From the NCBI GenBank assembly GCA_003244105.1, contig QHBK01000006.1, positions 124,001 through 188,000 of the forward strand: DNA of 64,000 nucleotides, in the 5' to 3' direction. The notes beneath the pieces were generated by a model. It was not told the DNA's origin and ran no database searches. It saw nothing but the letters and a program-made list of their open reading frames with translations. Each line of letters starts with the position of its first letter. The first letter of the stretch is position 1. The position numbers and the translations under genes are program-made. This DNA is from Candidatus Eremiobacter antarcticus (GTDB taxonomy: Bacteria > Vulcanimicrobiota > Vulcanimicrobiia > Eremiobacterales > Eremiobacteraceae). This document shows positions 11,097-46,697 of this stretch, in pieces.

Positions 11097-12068
11097 ATGA
11101 AATCATCGGCAGCAGTCGCGATTGTGGCGCTGCTGCTTGCGTTCGGTTCGCTCTACCTTCGCGGTGTGGAGCTTGCGCACGCCGGCTTAGACAGCGTGTC
11201 GCGCAACGATGCGGAAGATCACAGCGGAACGCTCGGACCCTACTACGTGGATGATGGCGGCCATCCTGAACACCGCGCGCGCGGAGTGACTATGCACGAC
11301 GAGGTTCCCATGGTCGATTACGGCCGAGGGGGGCAGCTCAATCCGGTCCTCGTGGAGCAGTATGCCTTAGAGCTGTTCCATCGATACGCGCGCTCTCACA
11401 GCGCTGAGGACAAACGCCTCTTCCTCGTCCAAGCCGATTGGTTGCGTCGTTTCTGCCGTCAGGGGCGCTGCGAGTACGAGTTCCCGTTCCCTCCACAGAT
11501 AAGCTCAGCGCGCTGGGTCTCGAGCCTCGGTCAAGCGCAAGAGATCTCGGTGCAGCTGCGCGCCTATCAGCTGACGGGTGACACCAAGTTTTTGGCCGCT
11601 GCCAACGCTGCCTACCGGGTCCTCGTGACGCCCTTTCCCCGGGGGCCCATGATGCTCTCCGGCGAGGAAGCGTGGTTTGAAGAATATCCGCAAACGCCCG
11701 CGACGCACGTGCTGAACGGCCACATGTTCGCGCTCCTGAGCCTGTGGGAGTATTACCGTGTGACGCACGATCCCAGCGCCCGAAACTGGTTTTTGCGCGG
11801 CATCGCAGCTTTGAAGTCCGGCATCCAACAATCCGACACCGGTTTTTGGGCGCGTTACGACCTGCTGCACGCGCAGCTATGCTCGCGCAAATACCTCAAT
11901 ATCGAGATCGCGCAGCTCATCACGCTCTCGGGCATCGCGAACGACGAATTCCTCGCAGAAATCGCACAGCGATTTGAAGCGTACAAGACGAATCCGATCT
12001 TGAGCTTGCGCGTGCGATGGTACGCGCTGCACCATCCGCATGCGCTGAGCGAAGTCGTCAGCGACTAA
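11097..12068 (+). CDS. D-glucuronyl C5-epimerase C-terminal domain protein
   Basis: A 323-residue protein with an N-terminal hydrophobic segment (VAIVALLLAFGSLYL) that is a signal peptide or membrane anchor. The body matches the C5-epimerase C-terminal domain. RWVSSLGQAQEISVQLRAY comes first, then GEEAWFEEYP and HVLNGHMFALLSLWEYY, where family members read WFEEYP...VLNGF.FSLLGLYD. C5-epimerases invert uronic acids in heparosan- or alginate-like polymers. Whether this bacterial copy is an epimerase or another alpha/alpha-toroid carbohydrate enzyme is not proven. It follows two lipoprotein genes on the same strand, and its last 4 nt overlap the converging DJ-1-like gene. Confidence 0.8.
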   Translation: MKSSAAVAIVALLLAFGSLYLRGVELAHAGLDSVSRNDAEDHSGTLGPYYVDDGGHPEHRARGVTMHDEVPMVDYGRGGQLNPVLVEQYALELFHRYARSHSAEDKRLFLVQADWLRRFCRQGRCEYEFPFPPQISSARWVSSLGQAQEISVQLRAYQLTGDTKFLAAANAAYRVLVTPFPRGPMMLSGEEAWFEEYPQTPATHVLNGHMFALLSLWEYYRVTHDPSARNWFLRGIAALKSGIQQSDTGFWARYDLLHAQLCSRKYLNIEIAQLITLSGIANDEFLAEIAQRFEAYKTNPILSLRVRWYALHHPHALSEVVSD

Positions 12069-12757
12069 GAGACCCTCGGGGCCTCCGGCTGTTCCCCGAG
12101 CCTTTCGAGAATGCGACGCCTAGTCTCGAACAAAGCGGCCGTCGCCTCGGTGACCGATTCAACATCCCCACGCCGGGCCGAGGCGGGCGAACCCGAGTCA
12201 AAAGGCGGTTGTGGATCGTACTCCATGCTGAGCTGGATTCGGCGGGCCACGGCTTCTCCCGACGTGCGAGCCGCGACCGTAAGCGCGAAATCGATGCCGG
12301 CGCTGACGCCTGCGGCTGTTATTCTGTCTGCGTCGACAACCACGCGTGCCTTGACCGGCTGGGCGCCGAACAGAGGCAAAAGATCGAGATAGCGCCAGTG
12401 AGTGGTAGCTCTGTATCCCCGCAACAAGCCGGCGGCTCCCAGCGCCAACGCTCCCGTGCATACCGAGGTCACCCAACGAGCACTTCCCGCCATGCGGACG
12501 AGATGGCCGAGCACCTCGCGGTCTTGCAAAACGTCGCTGATGCCGGGACCGCCGGGCATGCATATGAGATCGCACGCTGATGCGGTTCCGTGCGTACGGG
12601 TTGGGGAGAAGAGGAGGCCCTTATCTGACAGTACCGGCGCTCCTGACGCGGCGATCAGTTCAACCTCGCAGCCGGGTAAGCGCGAAAACACCTCGTGCGG
12701 ACCGACGACGTCGAGCGCGGTCACGTTGGGAAAAACGAAAATGCCTATGCGATGCAC
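12065..12757 (-). CDS. DJ-1/PfpI family protein (isonitrile hydratase-like)
   Basis: A 230-residue class I glutamine amidotransferase-like protein of the DJ-1/PfpI superfamily. IGIFVFPNVTALDVVGP opens the domain and CMPGGPG carries the oxyanion region. The nucleophile elbow is SVCTGALALGAAGLL, with the reactive Cys, followed by ATTHW with a His. This arrangement is typical of isonitrile hydratase and of the N-terminal half of GlxA-type AraC regulators. No AraC HTH is present: the C-terminus is a short helical tail, so an enzyme or a redox/glyoxal-type function is more likely than regulation. It converges with the C5-epimerase-like gene. Confidence 0.83.
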   Translation of the reverse strand: MHRIGIFVFPNVTALDVVGPHEVFSRLPGCEVELIAASGAPVLSDKGLLFSPTRTHGTASACDLICMPGGPGISDVLQDREVLGHLVRMAGSARWVTSVCTGALALGAAGLLRGYRATTHWRYLDLLPLFGAQPVKARVVVDADRITAAGVSAGIDFALTVAARTSGEAVARRIQLSMEYDPQPPFDSGSPASARRGDVESVTEATAALFETRRRILERLGEQPEAPRVS

Positions 12758-12775
12758 GGCCGGTCCTTGGGCGAC

Positions 12776-15700
12776 CTACTCTCCGACGGGCGAGAGCAGT
12801 TCGTCGAGATCCGCCCGCGTGAGCGATTTCGCGAAAGCCGCATCGCTCGATACGACTGAATCCGCCAGCGCCTGTTTGCGCTGCTGGAGCGACTGGATCT
12901 TCTCTTCGACGGAACCCAACGTCACCAACCGGTAGGCCGTCACCGGCTTGGTCTGTCCGATGCGGTGCGTGCGGTCGATCGCCTGGCGCTCGATGGCCGG
13001 GTTCCACCAGGGGTCGTAGAGCACCACGTAATCTGCCTCGGTGACCGTCAGGCCCACGCCGCCGGCTTTCAAGCTCATCAAGAAGATCGGGGGACCGTCC
13101 GGGCGGCGGAAATCATCGAGCACTTTGCTGCGGTTCTTCGTCGAACCGTCCAGATACGAATACGTGCGCTTGCGCGAGTCGAGCGCCTCACGCATCAGCC
13201 CGAGCATCTCGGTGAAGGAGGAGAACACGAGCACGCGGTGGCCGGATTCGATGATGGATTCGAGCAGCTCCAAAAAGGCCTGGAACTTGCCGGAGGCTTC
13301 GTCGTCCTCGCGCCAGTGATCGCCGATGAGGCCGGGGTGGCAACAGATCTGGCGCAGCTTCGTCAACGCGGCGAGGATGGAGAGCTGCGCTCTTGCGATT
13401 CCCCGTTCGTCCACCTCGCGCAAGATGTCGCGCCGCGCGCGCAGCACCGTCTCGCGATAGGCCTTTTTCTGCGACGCCGTCATCTCGCATTCGATGGTCT
13501 GCTCGGTGCGCGAGGGCAGATCGGCGGCCACTTGCGTCTTCAACCGCCGGATCATGAACGGCTGCACGCGGCGCGCCAAGCGCTGCTGCTTGTCCACGTC
13601 GCCGTCGCGCATGATGGGCGTCTCGAACGCGTTGCGGAAATGGCTCTCCTTGCCGAGAAGGCCAGGCATGACGAAATCGACGATTGACCACAGGTCCAGC
13701 ACGGAATTTTCGATGGGCGTGCCGGTCAGCGCAAGCCGCTGCTCCGAGTGGATGCCTTTGATGACTTGCGAGATCTTCGCTTGCGGGTTTTTGATCTGCT
13801 GCGCCTCGTCCAAGACGATGGTGCGGAAATTCAACCGGTTCAACGTCTCCGCGTCGCGCCGCGCCAACGCATACGAGGTGACAAGCAGGTCGAACTTCCG
13901 GGCATCGTTGTAAACGGCTTCGCGGCCCGAACCGGCGCTCAGCAGCGTGACCTTCATCTCCGGCACGAAACGCGCTGCCTCGCTCAGCCAGGTGTGCGTC
14001 ACTGACGTCGGGCACACGATGAGATTGGGAGCGCTCCCGCAGCGCCGGCGCTCGCGTTCCAAATACGAAAGCACTTGCAGCGTCTTGCCGAGCCCCATGT
14101 CGTCGGCCAAAATGCCGCCGAACGCGTAGCGCCCGAGATATGCCAAGAAATCCAAGCCCTTGCGCTGGTACGGGCGCAAGATGCCGCTCAAGTGCTCGGG
14201 CGGATCGATCTCCTCGATGCCGGAAAAACCCCGCACCGCTTCGCGAAGCTCGCGCAGCCGGCCGGGCAGGCCCTCATCGCCGCATGCTTTGGCAAGGTCG
14301 TCATACACTGACAGCATCTGGGCGGTCGTAAGACGCGCTCGTCCGCCGCTCTCCAAGCCGCCGCCGAAACCGCCGGTGGCCTCCCGAAGCAGTGCGAAGG
14401 TCGAGAGGTCGATGAAGCGGCCGTCGGCCAGGCGATAGTACCGGCCTGTGCTTTGCCACAGGGCCTTGACGTCTTCGGGCGACAGCGCCTGGCCGTCGAG
14501 CAGCAATTCGACGGAGATCTCCAGCCAGTCGATGGGGCCGGTGGAAGCGGCGGAGGTCTTGTTACGAACCTTGGCTTGCCCTTTTTCCTTTTGCGCCTCG
14601 TCCCCGTCGACGGACAAAGAAACGTGGAGGGCCTTGGGGCCATCCACGAGGGACTTCACTGTTTCGTCCAAGTCCAGGTGAAAATCGGATCGCCACGCCG
14701 GAAGCGTCTCGGTGCCGAACTGGTAGCTCGCGTCGGTGCCTTCCATCCGCCACGCGGTCTCATCGTAGTGCGGCAGCGGCTCGTTCGGATGCTCGAGACA
14801 CCAAGAGTCGTAGATAGCTTTCCACGGCCTAAAACCGCTGGACTCGAGCTTGCTCTTGACCGACAAAGCGACGGCCGGGTCGCAGTATGCGTAGCGCGGA
14901 ATGCCGTCTCTTTGTGGACTGTCGATGCGGTGCAGCGGGTTGAACTCCATCGTCGTGATCGGCCAATGAGCTCCGCTCTTGGCATCCTCCACCGCCGCGT
15001 CAGCCGTGATTCCGTCGCCTTGCCAACGCAGCCGCACCAAGGTCTGCTTTTCCATCTCCGAAGGCGGAAGCAGCAACGTCGCGGCCGTGTCCTGTTCGAG
15101 CAGCGCATGAGCCCGTTCGAGGAGGCGAGGGATTTCAGCGGGTGTCAGCCGCACCGACGCAGCGCTGCGAAAACGCTCGACGATGCGCACGCCGAAGGAG
15201 CCGTCGTGCATGTAGAACGTCTGACCGTCGAAGAGCCATGTGGGCATGGCATCGATCGTCCGAACGGTGCTGACGTCAACCGAGGATCCGTCGGGGCGCG
15301 TGAACGATGCAACCAGATCCAAATCACCGCTCTGCTGGCGCTTTCCGGAGAGCCGCAGCCGCAGAGGCGAGAGCGAGATTCTGCTGACCGGCATCGATTC
15401 CGGATGCGAGCCAAGGTGATCGTCATGGCGCACGCGCGGATGCGCGATGAGGCGCAGCAACAGCTGAGCGAAGTTGTTGCTCAAGCGCGCGGTGTGCTCG
15501 CTCGAGGGCCGCGCCAACGCATAATCGGCCGGCATGCCGAACATATGGCCGAGCGACGCGTCGGAGAGCAGCGCGCTGTCGTACCGGTCCCACTCCTCGC
15601 CGGTGAGATTCGCCTGCCGCGTGGTCCGGTAAAGCTGCTGCAGGTCGGCGTGCGTCCGCCCGACGCCGTGAAGCTTGGGAGCGTCGAGCGCCAAGCGCGC

Positions 15701-40481: not shown

Positions 40482-41759
40482 TTATGCAAGGTCTCGCAAC
40501 GCGATGAAACGCGTCATCGCCGCGCTGGCGACGAGCACAAGAGCGCCGGCTATGGCCAGAGTCGACGGCAGGGACGTGAGCGTGGCGGCGGATCCGAGCA
40601 GCCACGCGCCGAGCGGCATGAATCCCAAGAAGATCATCGTGTAGAGCGACATCACGCGGCCGCGCATCACGAGCGGCGTGTGGGTCTGGAGCAGCGTGTT
40701 GGTCATGCCCATGAACAGCATGATCGCAGCACCTAAGACGACGAGCGCGCACGACGCCGACAGGACGTTGCGCGTCAGAGCGAAGCAGAAAAGGGCGGCG
40801 CCCGAGGCGATGCCGCTTGACAGCATCAGGATGCCCCGGCGGTGCTGTGCCCCGATGAATGCTGTTGCGATCGAGCCGCCAAGAGCTCCCGCACCCGAGA
40901 CTGCCATCAGGATTCCCAGCCCGTCCGCGCCCCTGTGGATGACGCCCTTGGCGAAGGCGGGCATGAGCTGGATGTAAGGCCGAGCGACGATCGACATGAG
41001 CACGGCGAGCGCGAAGATGGCAAGGATCGCGGGCTGCGAGCGGACATAGCGCAGGCCGTCCAGCATCTCGTGCCAGATGCCGCGACGTTCCACGTCTAAA
41101 AGTGGGGGCTTGGGAGAAATCGCGCCCAACGCCAACAGGACAGCACCGTAAGAGAGCGCGTTGATGTAAAAACAATCAGCCACCCCGACGGTGCTGACGA
41201 GAATGCCGCCCAACGCCGGACCGATGATCGCGGGCCCGTTGAATGCCGCCGAGTTCAGGCCGATGGCATTCATCAGCTGACCCTTGGGCACCAAATGCGG
41301 AACGAGCGACTGGCGTGTCGGGGCGTCGAACGACAATCCCGCGGCCGACACGGCGGCGAGGACCAGGACGTGCCAGATTTTCACGACGTGCAGCTGCGAC
41401 AGAATGGCAAGCGCTAAGGCGCTGATCCCCAGCGCCGATTGGCTGATGATCAGGAGCCGGCGCCGGTCCACCCGATCGGCCAGTGTGCCGGCGACGCCTG
41501 ACAGCAAAAAAACCGGAATCGCTCGCACGAACCCGACAAGGCCGAGATAAAAAGGGGCGAGCGTCTGGTTGGGTGAGAGCTCGACGACGAGCCAGCCTTG
41601 GGCGAGCGTGGCCATCCAGCTGCCCGTGTTGGAGACGAGCAGGCCAGCCCACAACAGCCGGAACTCTTTATAGGCAAGAGCGCCGAAGCGGCGGGAAATG
41701 ATGGGCGTCGACCCAGGCTCGCTTACATCGTGACCGTCCGGCATCGCCACTCGATGCAT
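40482..41759 (-). CDS. MFS transporter (EntS-like exporter family)
   Basis: A 425-residue inner-membrane protein with about 12 helices. The first transmembrane pair contains LLWAGLLVSNTGSWMATLAQ and the family-typical motif A is GTLADRVDRRRLLII. DAPTRQSLVPHLV and GPALGGILV are typical of the PF05977 (EntS/MFS_3) branch, which exports siderophores and other small molecules. It lies between the TonB receptor and the LuxE-LuxC-aminotransferase operon, all on the same strand, but 475 bp separate it from the latter. The substrate is unknown. Confidence 0.88.
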   Translation of the reverse strand: MHRVAMPDGHDVSEPGSTPIISRRFGALAYKEFRLLWAGLLVSNTGSWMATLAQGWLVVELSPNQTLAPFYLGLVGFVRAIPVFLLSGVAGTLADRVDRRRLLIISQSALGISALALAILSQLHVVKIWHVLVLAAVSAAGLSFDAPTRQSLVPHLVPKGQLMNAIGLNSAAFNGPAIIGPALGGILVSTVGVADCFYINALSYGAVLLALGAISPKPPLLDVERRGIWHEMLDGLRYVRSQPAILAIFALAVLMSIVARPYIQLMPAFAKGVIHRGADGLGILMAVSGAGALGGSIATAFIGAQHRRGILMLSSGIASGAALFCFALTRNVLSASCALVVLGAAIMLFMGMTNTLLQTHTPLVMRGRVMSLYTMIFLGFMPLGAWLLGSAATLTSLPSTLAIAGALVLVASAAMTRFIALRDLA

Positions 41760-41824: not shown

Positions 41825-42080
41825 CAGAACAGAAACGGCCGAGCACGAGGCTCGGCCGTAACTGTTAGGTCGATAGCGTTTCGCCTGGCGTAGGAATCTG
41901 TCTTTCCGGTGAGCAGATTCGTTTGCGTAGGCTTAACTGGGACGCGATCCCCAGAGCTATCATCCGGTTTGAGGCCGGATCCCCAACGGTAGGGGCACCA
42001 TCTCCGAGAAGTTCGGCTCTCTACGCTTGCAAACGTAGCACCCGTTGTTGCTTTCGCTTCTCGGCACCGCGGTCGGTGTG
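41825..42080 (-). ncRNA. candidate structured RNA of unknown class
   Basis: The gap 41760-42234 contains a run of hairpins best read on the minus strand. CTTCTCGG/CCGAGAAG (42057-42064 with 42004-42011) encloses CTACG/CGTAG (42021-42025, 42034-42038). CCCC/GGGG (41981-41984, 41992-41995) comes next, then ATCCGG/CCGGAT (41962-41967, 41975-41980), GGGA/TCCC (41939-41942, 41948-41951) and GAATCTG/CAGATTC (41894-41900, 41914-41920). An intrinsic terminator closes the run. I compared it by eye with tmRNA, RNase P, SRP, 6S and common riboswitch motifs and none fit. A frame of 113 codons through this stretch has no protein-like character. Confidence 0.45.
41828..41866 (-). terminator. terminator closing the candidate RNA
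   Basis: A 9-bp perfect stem ACGGCCGAG/CTCGGCCGT (41835-41843, 41851-41859) has an outer AACAG/CTGTT extension separated by a 2x2 internal loop. On the minus strand the stem is followed by TTCTGTTCT. On the plus strand no T-run follows. Confidence 0.65.
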
Positions 42081-42234: not shown

Positions 42235-43626
42235 TTACCGAACAACAACTGCGGGCGCCGCAACCGCATTCGCAAACGTGCTTTCAAGAACGCGCGCGCA
42301 GAAGCGAAGCTGTTCAAGGCTGATCGTCAAGGGCGGAGAGAGCGAGATGACGTTGCGATGCGGACCGCACGTCAATATGAGCACCCCATTGATCATCGCT
42401 TCACGCATCACCTCAGCCGCAAGCTTCGCATCGGGACCGCCGTCGGGCGCCGTGCACTCAAGACCCCAAAGCAGCCCGCAGCCACGGATGTCGCTGATGC
42501 GCCCGTCAGAGCAGGCTGCGACGCCTTGCAGCAGGGAGCGCACGCTGCCCTCGAGCTCTGCGGCTCGTTCGGCCAACCGGTGCTTGCGCAGTTCGGCGAT
42601 CGACGCAAGCGCCGCGGCGCAGCCGGCCGGATGGCCGAGAAAGGTTCCGGTATGCATCGCTTCGCCGCCGGAGAGAGGCCAACGATCCATGATCTCCGCT
42701 TTGCCGACGCAGGCCGCGATCGGGAAACCGGAAGACATGCCCTTGCCCAGGCAGAGAAGATCCGGCACGATGCCCGCGCGCTCGCACGCGAACCAGCGGC
42801 CGGTGCGCCCGAACCCCGTGAAGATCTCATCGACGATGAGGACGAGGCTGCGCTCGTCACACATTTCCCTCAAGCCCTGCAGCCAGCCGGCGGGCGCGGG
42901 CACGACGCCGCCGCGCCCCGCGACTGCCTCGACGATGACTGCGCCGATATCAGCGCCTTTAGGCCCATCGAGCAGCGCGCGAACTGCGGCAAGACAGGCA
43001 GCGTCGCAGTCTCCACGACAGTGCGACAGCGGACAGCGATGAGCGTTCGGGTACGGCGCTCTGACCGCAAATGGCGCGAGTTGTGCGCGCAACGGCGCTT
43101 TGAACTCATCACGGTCGGTAAGCGGGAGTGTTCCATAGCTCAGGCCGTGATAGGCGTCTGTGAAGCAAATGACGCCCGGCTTGCCGGATGCGATGGCGGC
43201 GGTTTTCAAAGCGGCTTCGACCGCTTCCGCGCCGGTCGCGGCAAAGATCACGCGCTTGGCGCCCTCGCCGGGCGTCAGTCCGCAAAGAAGCTTGGCGAGC
43301 GCAAGGCGGTTCTCGGTGGGATAGACGTCGCCCATGCCATGGAAAAGCCGCCGCGCTTGAGCGGCCATCGCTTCGACGACCTGGGGATTGCTGTGTCCGG
43401 CGGCTGCGACACCAAAGGCGCCGGTCAGATCGACATAGACATTGCCGTCGACGTCGACGATGTTGGCACCGTGTGCGTCAGAGAGAAAGATCGGAAACTC
43501 GTCGCTCACATAAGTGATGTTGCGGCTCTCGTACGTATGAAGCTGCGCGGACAAGCGCCGGCTGTTGGGACCCGGTGGAGAGATATTGATGTCGGCGAAG
43601 CGGCCGCCCAGAGAGTCCTCGCTCAT
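42235..43626 (-). CDS. class III PLP aminotransferase
   Basis: A 463-residue PLP enzyme of the GabT/ArgD/GSA type. The cofactor lysine is in CLGKGMSSGFPIAAC, preceded by LVLIVDEIFTGFGRTGRWFA, where the Asp pairs with the pyridine N. GATGAEAVEAAL and FHGMGDVYPTENR are typical N-terminal elements. A Cys-rich insertion (HRCPLSHCRGDCDAAC) resembles the CPFG..C region of GABA aminotransferases. ATG 43626 overlaps the stop of the LuxC-like gene (ATGA). The genetic link to LuxE/LuxC suggests it aminates the aldehyde that they make; this is inference. Confidence 0.88.
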   Translation of the reverse strand: MSEDSLGGRFADINISPPGPNSRRLSAQLHTYESRNITYVSDEFPIFLSDAHGANIVDVDGNVYVDLTGAFGVAAAGHSNPQVVEAMAAQARRLFHGMGDVYPTENRLALAKLLCGLTPGEGAKRVIFAATGAEAVEAALKTAAIASGKPGVICFTDAYHGLSYGTLPLTDRDEFKAPLRAQLAPFAVRAPYPNAHRCPLSHCRGDCDAACLAAVRALLDGPKGADIGAVIVEAVAGRGGVVPAPAGWLQGLREMCDERSLVLIVDEIFTGFGRTGRWFACERAGIVPDLLCLGKGMSSGFPIAACVGKAEIMDRWPLSGGEAMHTGTFLGHPAGCAAALASIAELRKHRLAERAAELEGSVRSLLQGVAACSDGRISDIRGCGLLWGLECTAPDGGPDAKLAAEVMREAMINGVLILTCGPHRNVISLSPPLTISLEQLRFCARVLESTFANAVAAPAVVVR

Positions 43627-44780
43627 TGGGGCAGGGTGAAATCGGAAATCGTGGGACGATAGCCAAACGGCGGCCGCTGCATTTCGCCAAGCGCGCACAC
43701 GCGGCTGGCGCCGGCGGCTTGGAAGAGAGATCGCAACTCCTTGTGGTTGTCGCCCGCGACAGCCACGGTGTCAAAACGCGCACCCAACGCGCTGGCGGCC
43801 GAGGCAGCCTGTGCCGCGTCCAGGCAGGGCTTTGCGACGGCGATGCGCCCGAATCCCATGCAGACAGGCTTGCCAAATGATTGCGCCGCGACGACGTGCG
43901 ACGGTGCACCGCGCTGCGCCGCACCCACGAAAATCCCGCTGCCTTCACCCGACGGTAGGGCGGCAACGGCCAAGCGGCGCAGCGCCGCCGCGACCGCTTC
44001 CCTCTCAAGCTCGTCCGCGGGCGCCCGCGGAAAGCGCTCCGCCAAGCGCGTTAGCGCCGCATGGAGCGCTTCTGCAAAGGCAACGCAGCGGGGCTCGTCG
44101 CCTTGCACGTAGATGGTCTGAGGCGACATGCAGCCCCGCTGATCGAAGAGCGCTATATCCTGCGCCGCGGCATCAGCCGCCTGCGGCAACTGCGCGTTCG
44201 CGGAGACGTACGCGATGCTGTACGCATTGCCGTATGCCCTCACGACCGTGCGCGGCGGCGCTCGGCGCTCCACGTCCGCGATAGTCGCGTCTTCGCCGAA
44301 GACGACGATGATGTCCGCACGCGCAAAGGCGGCGTCTTCGCGGCTTGCGTCACCTCCGCTCCAGTACGTGGCTGTCACGGTGTCAACGAACGGCTCTCCG
44401 AAGGCGTCGAACTGCGATGCAAGGATCTCTGGCAGACGGCGCTCCGCGTGCGAGGATTTCAGCACAACCTTTGCGCCTGCAACGGCTGCGCAAAATGCGC
44501 AGGCGACCGCCGGTCCGATGATGTTGCCGGGCAAGATGGCGAGCGCGCTCGGCGGCGCGAGGGGCGGGGCTGCCTGGCGGCGATACCGGCAGGCGGCTGC
44601 CTCAAAATCGTACAGCGCGTTGTCCAAGGCGGTCTCAATCGTTTGGCGCGGCCATTGACCGCCTGCCAGCGCTGTGCGAGCCTGCCTCCGAACAGCGGAG
44701 TTCGCATTGCTCCAGGCCGCAGCAGCTCGCGTCAGAAGCGCCGGAACCGGCTCCACCGGCATCGTGGTGTCGAGCTTCAT
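43623..44780 (-). CDS. LuxC-family acyl-CoA/acyl-enzyme reductase
   Basis: A 385-residue fatty-acyl reductase of the LuxC family, which takes an acyl group onto a cysteine and reduces it to the aldehyde with NADPH. The catalytic Cys lies in FDQRGCMSPQTIYV, the family's hallmark. AILPGNIIGPAVACAFCAAV precedes it and GIFVGAAQRG follows. The fold is aldehyde-dehydrogenase-like. The start codon overlaps the LuxE-like stop and its stop overlaps the aminotransferase start, so all three are coupled. There is no luxAB anywhere in the window. Confidence 0.88.
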   Translation of the reverse strand: MKLDTTMPVEPVPALLTRAAAAWSNANSAVRRQARTALAGGQWPRQTIETALDNALYDFEAAACRYRRQAAPPLAPPSALAILPGNIIGPAVACAFCAAVAGAKVVLKSSHAERRLPEILASQFDAFGEPFVDTVTATYWSGGDASREDAAFARADIIVVFGEDATIADVERRAPPRTVVRAYGNAYSIAYVSANAQLPQAADAAAQDIALFDQRGCMSPQTIYVQGDEPRCVAFAEALHAALTRLAERFPRAPADELEREAVAAALRRLAVAALPSGEGSGIFVGAAQRGAPSHVVAAQSFGKPVCMGFGRIAVAKPCLDAAQAASAASALGARFDTVAVAGDNHKELRSLFQAAGASRVCALGEMQRPPFGYRPTISDFTLPQ

Positions 44781-45922
44781 GCGCTGCTCAGCATTGCATC
44801 GATCGCGGTGCTGCATCCCTTGGGCGGCGCTGCTGTCGAGCGTCCGACAAAACGAAAGCCGCCCGCTCGTGCCATGCCGAGATCGGCCGTCAGGACGGCC
44901 GCCACCGAGCCGCGGTTAGAAAGGTCCAGGCAGCGCAGCAATCCCGTCTCTCCAGGTGGCAGCTCGCGTTCGTCGACCGGGTTGACGACCGTCCAGCGCG
45001 ACCAATGCGGTGCGATTTTGAGGTCATGACGAGGTGGCCGTCCGGCCAGGACGTCGCCTAAGTTCGCATCGTAACACTGGCTGCCAAGCTCGCACATGCC
45101 GTATTCGGAAATGCAGAAGTCGCGCGGAACTCCGAACACCTCGGTCAAGAGCCTGTAGAAGTCGTCTCGCGCGAGCGATCGGGATCTTCCTTTGAAGCCC
45201 CCCGTCTCCACGGTGCGGCTTCCCGGCGGCAAAGCGAACATCAGCTCGCGTTCGCGGCACGCGTCGAAGAAGTGCACGAAGGCAAACGCCGTGCCGAAGA
45301 CGAGCATCGGGCGTCGCGCGCGTGCCAGCGCGCGAGCGGCGGCGTCGACATCCAACGCTCCCTCGCGGACGAAAAATCCCCCGCCGGCGCCAAAATTGGC
45401 GAACAGGTGCGAGAGCATGTAGGCAAGCGATGAATGCGGTGCCTCGCCGAACGTCGGCGACAACATGACCATGTCGATACGGGGCATGTCGGGCAAGACA
45501 CAAGCCTTGAAATGCGTCCGCAAAGAAGCATCGTAGAGCTCCGTCGATTCCAGCTCCAAAACGGAAGCCGGACCACCGTCGCGCGTGCTGCCGCTGGAGC
45601 TGAATCGGACGCTCTCGCGGTCTTGCGGGAACGCCGCGAGGCGCACGTCCGCAAACGACGAGGTTGGAACGGCCGGAATCTCGCTCCATATGCGCACCTG
45701 CCCAGGCGTCACTCCGCGGCTCGCACAGTACCGGCGGTAGAACTCGTTATGATCGAATTGATGGTCGAATAGCGTCAGCGCGAGGCTTTGGAATTCAGCA
45801 TCGCTTTCAGCCGCGCTCCCAGGTCCGCTTTCAATGAAGGACTTGATCCGGCGATCGAGCTCGCCCGCCGCTTGCCGCCGCGTCAGCTCTCGTTCTGTTG
45901 CTTGTCGCACATCGAATTGCAT
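44777..45922 (-). CDS. LuxE-family acyl-protein synthetase
   Basis: A 381-residue ATP-dependent acyl-activating enzyme of the LuxE type (adenylate-forming, PaaK-like). The phosphate-binding loop reads FSSSGSTRDG. FTS-type active-site elements follow (VETGGFKGRSR, ISEYGMCELGSQCY). A Cys in KGCSTAIDA lies about 12 residues from the C-terminus, matching LuxE, whose acyl-accepting Cys is also near the end. Start choice is open: ATG 45922, or TTG 45937 five codons upstream. The LuxC gene overlaps by 4 nt. In Vibrio this pair reduces myristic acid; here the acid is unknown. Confidence 0.86.
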   Translation of the reverse strand: MQFDVRQATERELTRRQAAGELDRRIKSFIESGPGSAAESDAEFQSLALTLFDHQFDHNEFYRRYCASRGVTPGQVRIWSEIPAVPTSSFADVRLAAFPQDRESVRFSSSGSTRDGGPASVLELESTELYDASLRTHFKACVLPDMPRIDMVMLSPTFGEAPHSSLAYMLSHLFANFGAGGGFFVREGALDVDAAARALARARRPMLVFGTAFAFVHFFDACRERELMFALPPGSRTVETGGFKGRSRSLARDDFYRLLTEVFGVPRDFCISEYGMCELGSQCYDANLGDVLAGRPPRHDLKIAPHWSRWTVVNPVDERELPPGETGLLRCLDLSNRGSVAAVLTADLGMARAGGFRFVGRSTAAPPKGCSTAIDAMLSSA

Positions 45923-46055
45923 GAAGATATCTGTCAAAGCACGTCGTTCTTGGCAACGCGCGCAGACTGGACCTCCGGCTCGAAAGCTGCCGCGTTGCAG
46001 GGCAGCGCTGGCCCCGGCCTAAAGGCCAGACGCATATGGATGGGCATCCGCCGCC

Positions 46056-46697
46056 GTGATTGTGGATCAGTTTGCCGTCGGCCCGCTGGAGTGCAACTGC
46101 ATCATCCTGGCGGACGAACCAGGCGGACAGGCGATTGTCATCGACCCCGGAGAAGAACCCGCGCGAATCTTCGCGGCGCTGGAGAAACACCAACTGCGCC
46201 TGGCAGCAGCGGTGGCAACGCACGCGCACATCGATCATGTCGGCGGACTGGCCGCCTTGAAGCAGCTCACCGGCGCGCCTGCCATGATGCACGAGGATGA
46301 CGTGCCGCTCTACGAGCAGATGGCACTGCAGGCCGCTTGGCTCGGCGTGCCTGCGCCCGCGATCACGACCGTTGATTCGTATCTGCGCGACAAGCAGTTT
46401 GTCGGTTTCGGGGCGTGCGCGCTGCAAGTGATGCACACGCCCGGGCACTCGCCGGGCAGCGTCAGCTTCTTGCTCGACGAGAAGGTGCCGGTCGTCTTCA
46501 GCGGAGACACGCTGTTCGCGGGCAGCGTCGGAAGAACCGATTTGTGGGGCGGCTCCTTTGCAGCATTGCTGGCGTCCATCCACAAACGGCTGCTGTCACT
46601 GCCGGATGATATCGCGGTCGTGCCCGGCCACGGTCCGAGCACATCGATCGGCGACGAGCGGCGTTCCAACCCGTTCTTGCAAGACGTGCCGGGCTAG
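46056..46697 (+). CDS. metallo-beta-lactamase-fold hydrolase (glyoxalase II-like)
   Basis: A 213-residue MBL hydrolase. The metal motif is THAHIDHVGG (HxHxDH), with further ligands in HTPGHSPGSVSF, FSGDTLFAGSVGR and VVPGHGPSTSI. The N-terminus PLECNCIILAD is typical of the glyoxalase II / YcbL group, which hydrolyses thioesters such as S-lactoylglutathione or other bacterial thiol esters. GTG 46056 is the start. Two small genes follow 8 and 0 nt later and are likely co-transcribed. Confidence 0.87.
   Translation: MIVDQFAVGPLECNCIILADEPGGQAIVIDPGEEPARIFAALEKHQLRLAAAVATHAHIDHVGGLAALKQLTGAPAMMHEDDVPLYEQMALQAAWLGVPAPAITTVDSYLRDKQFVGFGACALQVMHTPGHSPGSVSFLLDEKVPVVFSGDTLFAGSVGRTDLWGGSFAALLASIHKRLLSLPDDIAVVPGHGPSTSIGDERRSNPFLQDVPG

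Follow-up and report, generated by a model that had tools for sequence, protein, structure and literature searches.

A conserved LuxE–LuxC–aminotransferase operon of Candidatus Eremiobacterota as a probable route from a carboxylic acid to a primary amine

Results

Organization and catalytic residues of the operon

Analysis of a 64,000-nucleotide stretch of DNA from Candidatus Eremiobacter antarcticus (phylum Candidatus Eremiobacterota; contig QHBK01000006.1, positions 124,001–188,000; hereafter the window) revealed a minus-strand operon of three open reading frames (ORFs), which encode in transcript order a LuxE-type synthetase, a LuxC-type reductase and a class III aminotransferase dependent on pyridoxal 5'-phosphate (PLP). 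We conclude that this trio probably constitutes a split, ATP-driven cascade from a carboxylic acid to a primary amine. The genes are linked in the window and in related genomes, their catalytic residues are kept, and the aminotransferases form a clade of their own with a changed substrate pocket. The assembly that contains the window amounts to 2.64 Mb in 19 contigs, and the three genes, in coordinates of the window, are as follows.

44777–45922, minus strand: LuxE-type acyl-protein synthetase, predicted to be adenylating (PF04443, E=8e-18; profile against PDB 7xc6_E, 5e-32)
43623–44780, minus strand: predicted LuxC-type thioester reductase (PF05893, E=4e-35; profile against PDB 7xc6_A, 7e-32)
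42235–43626, minus strand: class III PLP aminotransferase from a clade of its own (PF00202, Aminotran_3, E=2e-97; clade, residue signature and fold model)

The ORF listing confirmed the three-gene unit described in the original prediction, with ATGA overlaps at 44777–44780 (LuxE/LuxC) and 43623–43626 (LuxC/aminotransferase). LuxE starts with ATG, with a possible alternative TTG upstream at 45937, and the LuxC frame contains a further upstream ATG at 44816. The catalytic residues first recognized from motifs were likewise found in place: the near-terminal, acyl-accepting Cys of LuxE is C370 of 381 residues (GCS; codon 44813–44815), with a Cys kept in 42 of 42 relatives; the Cys in the RGCMSPQ motif of LuxC is C217 (codon 44130–44132), kept in all 51 relatives; and the PLP-binding Lys in the LGKGMSSG motif of the aminotransferase is K295, present in every alignment row covering the position. 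Family profiles of LuxC and LuxE matched the Photobacterium LuxC–LuxE complex (7xc6) across almost their full length (E=7e-32 and 5e-32, respectively). None of the three proteins reached an NCBIfam curated cut-off, and they are therefore divergent members of their families; the equivalog scores were 48.7 bits for LuxE (cut-off 550) and 55.6 bits for LuxC (cut-off 750), and the aminotransferase scored 214.8 bits against the PigE model (cut-off 850). Neither luciferase (luxAB) nor luxD was found among the neighbours scanned with Pfam, in agreement with the earlier claim that luxAB is absent as far as this neighbourhood goes; the rest of the genome was not searched for luxAB.

The families of the three proteins, a Lux-type reductase pair and a class III aminotransferase, together with the precedent of TamA–TamH and PigE, suggest the following steps. 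LuxE would consume ATP to convert the acid to an acyl-AMP and then bind the acyl moiety through its C-terminal Cys; LuxC would accept this moiety on its own Cys and reduce the thioester with NAD(P)H to an aldehyde; and the aminotransferase would convert this aldehyde to a primary amine at the expense of an amino donor. The direction of the reaction, the order of the steps and the hand-over of the aldehyde are all inferred on this basis.

Conservation of the trio in the class and its recurrence in other phyla

Trio-type aminotransferases, defined by a search with a profile of the trio aminotransferase (E<=1e-125), were found once each in 102 of the 117 genomes of the class Eremiobacteriia and in none of 32 genomes of other classes; the class genomes without a match were mostly fragmented or incomplete. 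In one class genome (G001), the aminotransferase gene is cut by the contig end. The check for linkage in related genomes that the original prediction had called for showed LuxE, LuxC and aminotransferase genes kept together class-wide, in the families named here f1 (that of the window), f2 and f3. All 12 uncut locus records of f1 carry LuxE–LuxC–aminotransferase on one strand. The same arrangement was present in 49 locus records of f2/f3, and 12 f2 records, mostly from genus g12, show LuxC–aminotransferase alone; the f2/f3 records include overlapping ones and ones that cover only a short flank, beyond which LuxE may lie. LuxE, LuxC and the aminotransferase are the only core common to all families.

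Departures from the compact order were of several kinds. In both g12 genomes that were followed, LuxE has been relocated to the leuCD–metY region of the same contig. In three loci (L174, L181 and L182), LuxE sits 1.2–1.4 kb upstream. The gap in L174 is an insertion, since it holds an opposite-strand gene (11704–12984, plus strand) for a predicted secreted repeat-like protein, which splits the operon between LuxE and LuxC; similar gaps separate LuxE from LuxC in L181 and L182. In genome G025, the LuxC and aminotransferase domains lie in one open frame (L027, 1–2664, minus strand; L178, 7555–10233, minus strand), a candidate for a possible natural fusion. Another genome, G014, carries the trio at C1:1574482–1578014. 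We take G014 to be that of the cultivated Vulcanimicrobium alpinum WC8-2 (DSM 115291), for which a closed genome of 3.50 Mbp has been reported (PMC9758169), and this strain therefore very probably carries the trio.

A check of phylum spread, also proposed at the outset, found the same three genes, rearranged, in at least three other phyla. Among 80 loci, which give a lower bound of the spread, the order aminotransferase–LuxE–LuxC occurred in at least 12 full loci from Deltaproteobacteria/Myxococcota, Omnitrophota and one Verrucomicrobia genome, with Minicystis rosea DSM 24000 among the carriers, and at least two further loci outside Eremiobacterota contain aminotransferase–LuxE only. The presence of the same three members in two different gene orders is strong evidence for one function, and conservation across the class together with recurrence in other phyla excludes chance as the cause of the association. 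That almost all genomes of the class, a little-studied group of soil bacteria, carry the trio points to a core role and not to an accessory secondary metabolite.

The aminotransferase clade and its altered pocket

Phylogenetic analysis (IQ-TREE) grouped 32 trio aminotransferases in one clade with support of 100/100, apart from 24 other class III aminotransferases. For comparison of pocket residues we used the E. coli GabT sequence, in which I50, R141, E211, K268 and R398 were checked by position. In GabT, R141 and R398 hold the carboxylates of the substrates, and E211 pairs with R398. The window enzyme has F71, L162, R238 and S428 at GabT positions 50, 141, 211 and 398, respectively. The 71 distinct trio aminotransferases from all phyla share Phe at 50, Leu (one Met) at 141, Arg at 211 and Lys at 268, and have Ser, Thr, Ala, Gln, Gly or, once, Val at 398, where one row is misaligned and one gapped. 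Among 23 other class III aminotransferases, many from the same genomes, Arg or Lys was present at 141 in 19, Arg at 398 in 19 and Glu at 211 in 17; none has Arg at 211, and none shows the trio pattern of replaced 141 and 398 with Arg at 211. The residue set tested for GABA (gamma-aminobutyrate) aminotransferase (R141, E211 and R398) was absent from the window enzyme and from the 71 distinct sequences.

Judged from these residues, the trio pocket would no longer suit a dicarboxylic partner. With the loss of the two arginines that bind GABA and 2-oxoglutarate by their carboxylates, the aldehyde should carry no carboxylate and, by the same reading, the acid acted on should carry no second one, while the invariant Arg at GabT position 211 may hold the amino donor instead. 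As substrate, we tentatively favour an acid that is hydrophobic or neutral in some other way, for example a branched or hydroxy fatty acid. In an AlphaFold model of the window enzyme (mean predicted local distance difference test score, 82.5), the best PDB matches were GABA transaminases, followed by racemases; for the Omnitrophota aminotransferase, the best solved relative was a putrescine aminotransferase.

Amino acid synthesis and amine degradation as alternative functions

Synthesis of an amino acid would be a known pathway accounting for the triplet, either from N-acetylglutamate to ornithine and arginine or from alpha-aminoadipate to lysine, with the trio replacing ArgB–ArgC–ArgD or LysWXYZJ. 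Class III aminotransferases catalyse the last step of both pathways, none of 11 f1 genomes has ArgC over the cut-off, 9 of 25 high-completeness genomes lack LysA, and leuCD and metY lie beside the operon in most f2 loci. However, a good ArgC occurs alongside the trio in 10 of 14 f2/f3 genomes, LysA is present in 16 of the 25 genomes, including that of the window, homocitrate synthase over the cut-off was found in none of the 25, and almost every genome has a single LeuC-type protein over the cut-off. Since ArgC or LysA coexists with the trio in most genomes, and since the arginines for binding carboxylated substrates of this kind are missing from the aminotransferase, we regard these routes as quite unlikely. 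A reading of the leuCD neighbours as homoaconitase was rejected on the LeuC and homocitrate synthase counts, and 5-aminolevulinate from glutamate was rejected as a needed route because HemA is present in 25 of 25 genomes. LysA was the sole clear PF02784 decarboxylase found per genome, so that a putrescine route is not inferable from this family.

The same enzymes might also run in reverse, with the aminotransferase deaminating an amine and LuxC acting as an acylating aldehyde dehydrogenase to form a thioester, in which case the operon would degrade amines. The nearest relatives of the aminotransferase do include catabolic GABA and putrescine aminotransferases, and LuxC is distantly related to aldehyde dehydrogenases; yet LuxE, which uses ATP to form a thioester, would have no obvious role in that direction, no linked amine uptake gene was seen, and retention of the trio by almost all members of a class whose genomes are small (about 1.9–4.5 Mb) suits biosynthesis better. 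Degradation is thus very unlikely.

Neighbouring genes and a conserved structured RNA

Outside the trio, the surrounding genes differ between families. The gene after the aminotransferase encodes a GFO/IDH/MocA dehydrogenase in nearly all f2 and f3 loci (e.g., L098, L101, L106, L111, L117 and L165–L184), including those of g12 where LuxE has moved. Most f2 loci also have a metY homologue and a CoA_binding_2 gene ahead of LuxE, and leuCD lies nearby in divergent orientation. None of these genes is linked to the trio in f1, where a metallo-hydrolase lies upstream and a major facilitator superfamily (MFS) transporter downstream. The GFO/IDH/MocA gene raises the alternative that the trio makes aminated polyols or sugars, with a sugar acid being reduced and aminated and the dehydrogenase providing an extra step. 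This is unlikely: the window genome has no close relative of the dehydrogenase, only weak ones occur in about half of f1, and the gene was not seen linked in other phyla, so that it is at most a lineage-specific addition to the acid-to-amine trio.

The features flanking the operon in the window are listed below.

41830–42079, minus strand: conserved structured RNA element of about 250 nucleotides, between the aminotransferase and MFS genes (covariation and fold z-score)
40482–41759, minus strand: MFS_3 transporter (Pfam), a neighbour kept in f1 only; candidate member of the system
46056–46697, plus strand: metallo-beta-lactamase-fold hydrolase, a divergent neighbour kept only in f1 and not counted as part of the system

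In the RNA element, 26 base pairs are supported by changes of both partners, and the fold z-score is -3.9; a promoter-like TATACT box lies immediately upstream of it, and it has a terminator hairpin. It was present in 13 of 14 f1 genomes, beside the trio wherever the contig shows it (in G001 it adjoins the truncated aminotransferase gene), and none of the other genomes searched in the phylum has it. No Rfam family matched at the curated gathering thresholds; an identity with SorX-type RNA was rejected, as it was suggested by weak Rfam matches that rest on the terminator hairpin. The element is a candidate new non-coding RNA and probably a transcript separate from the operon. The MFS gene does start 475 bp downstream of the trio (41759), as originally noted; its suggested role as exporter of the product was weakened, because it adjoins the trio only in f1, and because the conserved RNA that intervenes has a promoter-like box and a terminator hairpin of its own.

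LuxE and LuxC genes were also seen in other combinations. In other classes of the same phylum (L051–L066), a GNAT-like gene is followed by LuxE and then by a longer LuxC. In Sumerlaeota loci, LuxE is immediately followed by a class I aminotransferase of aromatic type (L082, 7896–10248; L104, 7938–10342), which may be a parallel case of acid activation paired with transamination. In some Verrucomicrobiota (L095, L100 and L109), the gene after LuxE–LuxC resembles 6-pyruvoyl-tetrahydropterin synthase and not an aminotransferase.

Discussion

The proposal of an acid-to-amine unit was strengthened by the linkage of the genes, by the catalytic residues and by an aminotransferase pocket that fits a carboxylate-free aldehyde; for the chemistry itself we rely on inference. 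It is plausible, if somewhat short of probable, that the trio provides the whole class Eremiobacteriia, as well as scattered members of three other phyla, with a core pathway in which a new aminotransferase subfamily with a rebuilt pocket makes an undescribed primary amine, be it a lipid component, a cofactor or a polyamine-like compound.

Several points weigh against the acid-to-amine cascade. Since racemases and lyases also belong to the class III PLP enzymes, transamination is a family-level assignment, and solved racemases score close behind GABA transaminases on the model of the aminotransferase. The amino donor is uncertain because the usual Glu-binding Arg is gone from the trio enzyme, whereas TamH uses L-Glu (PMC9594044). 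LuxE is separated from LuxC–aminotransferase in g12 and could therefore serve more than one reaction, and LuxE–LuxC without an aminotransferase is common in Gemmatimonadota, Verrucomicrobiota and Holophagales among the loci listed. A fatty amine, an aryl-alkyl amine and an amino-lipid headgroup, as first suggested, are candidate products. An amino-lipid is possible, but none is named among the polar lipids published for V. alpinum (PMC9758169), which is weak evidence against a major amino-lipid.

If the cascade operates as proposed, a conversion known from a few secondary-metabolite fusions would be a near-universal trait of a bacterial class, carried out by another set of enzymes. For Eremiobacterota, a soil phylum that is abundant and for the most part uncultured, this would indicate a core metabolite missed so far. 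The cascade would also provide a three-enzyme acid-to-amine system for biocatalysis. V. alpinum (DSM 115291), as a very probable carrier, makes the cascade testable.

Comparison with known systems

In line with the initial impression that the trio was not a described system, no LuxE–LuxC–aminotransferase system was described in the open-access literature searched. Among known enzymes, GABA and putrescine aminotransferases are the closest to the trio aminotransferase in sequence and structure and share its fold and PLP site, but the residues equivalent to GabT R141, E211 and R398 are replaced across the whole trio clade. The GNAT–LuxE–LuxC cassette also has adjacent LuxE and LuxC genes; it differs in its upstream GNAT-like gene, its longer LuxC, a LuxE far nearer to the Pfam LuxE family and the lack of a trio aminotransferase.

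The Lux fatty acid reductase of luminous bacteria (PDB 7xc6) resembles the trio in its adenylating LuxE with an acyl-accepting Cys near the C-terminus and its LuxC with a catalytic Cys. The trio, in contrast, is linked to an aminotransferase, and its scanned neighbours include no luciferase or LuxD. The GriC and GriD proteins are related to the Lux enzymes. As described in a later account (PMC10179220, citing Suzuki 2007), they form a two-protein carboxylic acid reductase for grixazone in Streptomyces griseus, and like LuxE and LuxC of the trio are two separate proteins making up one such reductase; their substrate, however, is an aromatic amino-hydroxybenzoate, and the aldehyde is not aminated. 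Flagellin glycosylation islands of Aeromonas and enterobacteria likewise contain LuxE and LuxC without luciferase (PMC7874193, PMC4875605), but with genes for acyl carrier protein (ACP), FabG, an AMP-ligase and glycosyltransferases, and with no class III aminotransferase partner described.

The overall change from acid to amine is partly anticipated by TamA–TamH of tambjamine synthesis and PigE of prodigiosin synthesis, which convert an acid or thioester through an aldehyde to an amine by thioester reduction and class III transamination, using a Cys-dependent reductase and then a class III aminotransferase as in the trio; the product of TamH is a fatty amine (PMC9594044, PMC8341465). The activating and reducing domains of these systems are unrelated to those of the trio: an A-ACP (adenylation and ACP) protein activates the acid in place of LuxE, and the reductase belongs to the cyanobacterial acyl-ACP-reductase type rather than to LuxC (PF05893). 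Furthermore, aminotransferase and reductase are fused in TamH and PigE, whereas they are encoded by separate ORFs in the trio. The trio would probably work like TamA–TamH or PigE, but with parts of the Lux fatty acid reductase and an aminotransferase from a separate clade.

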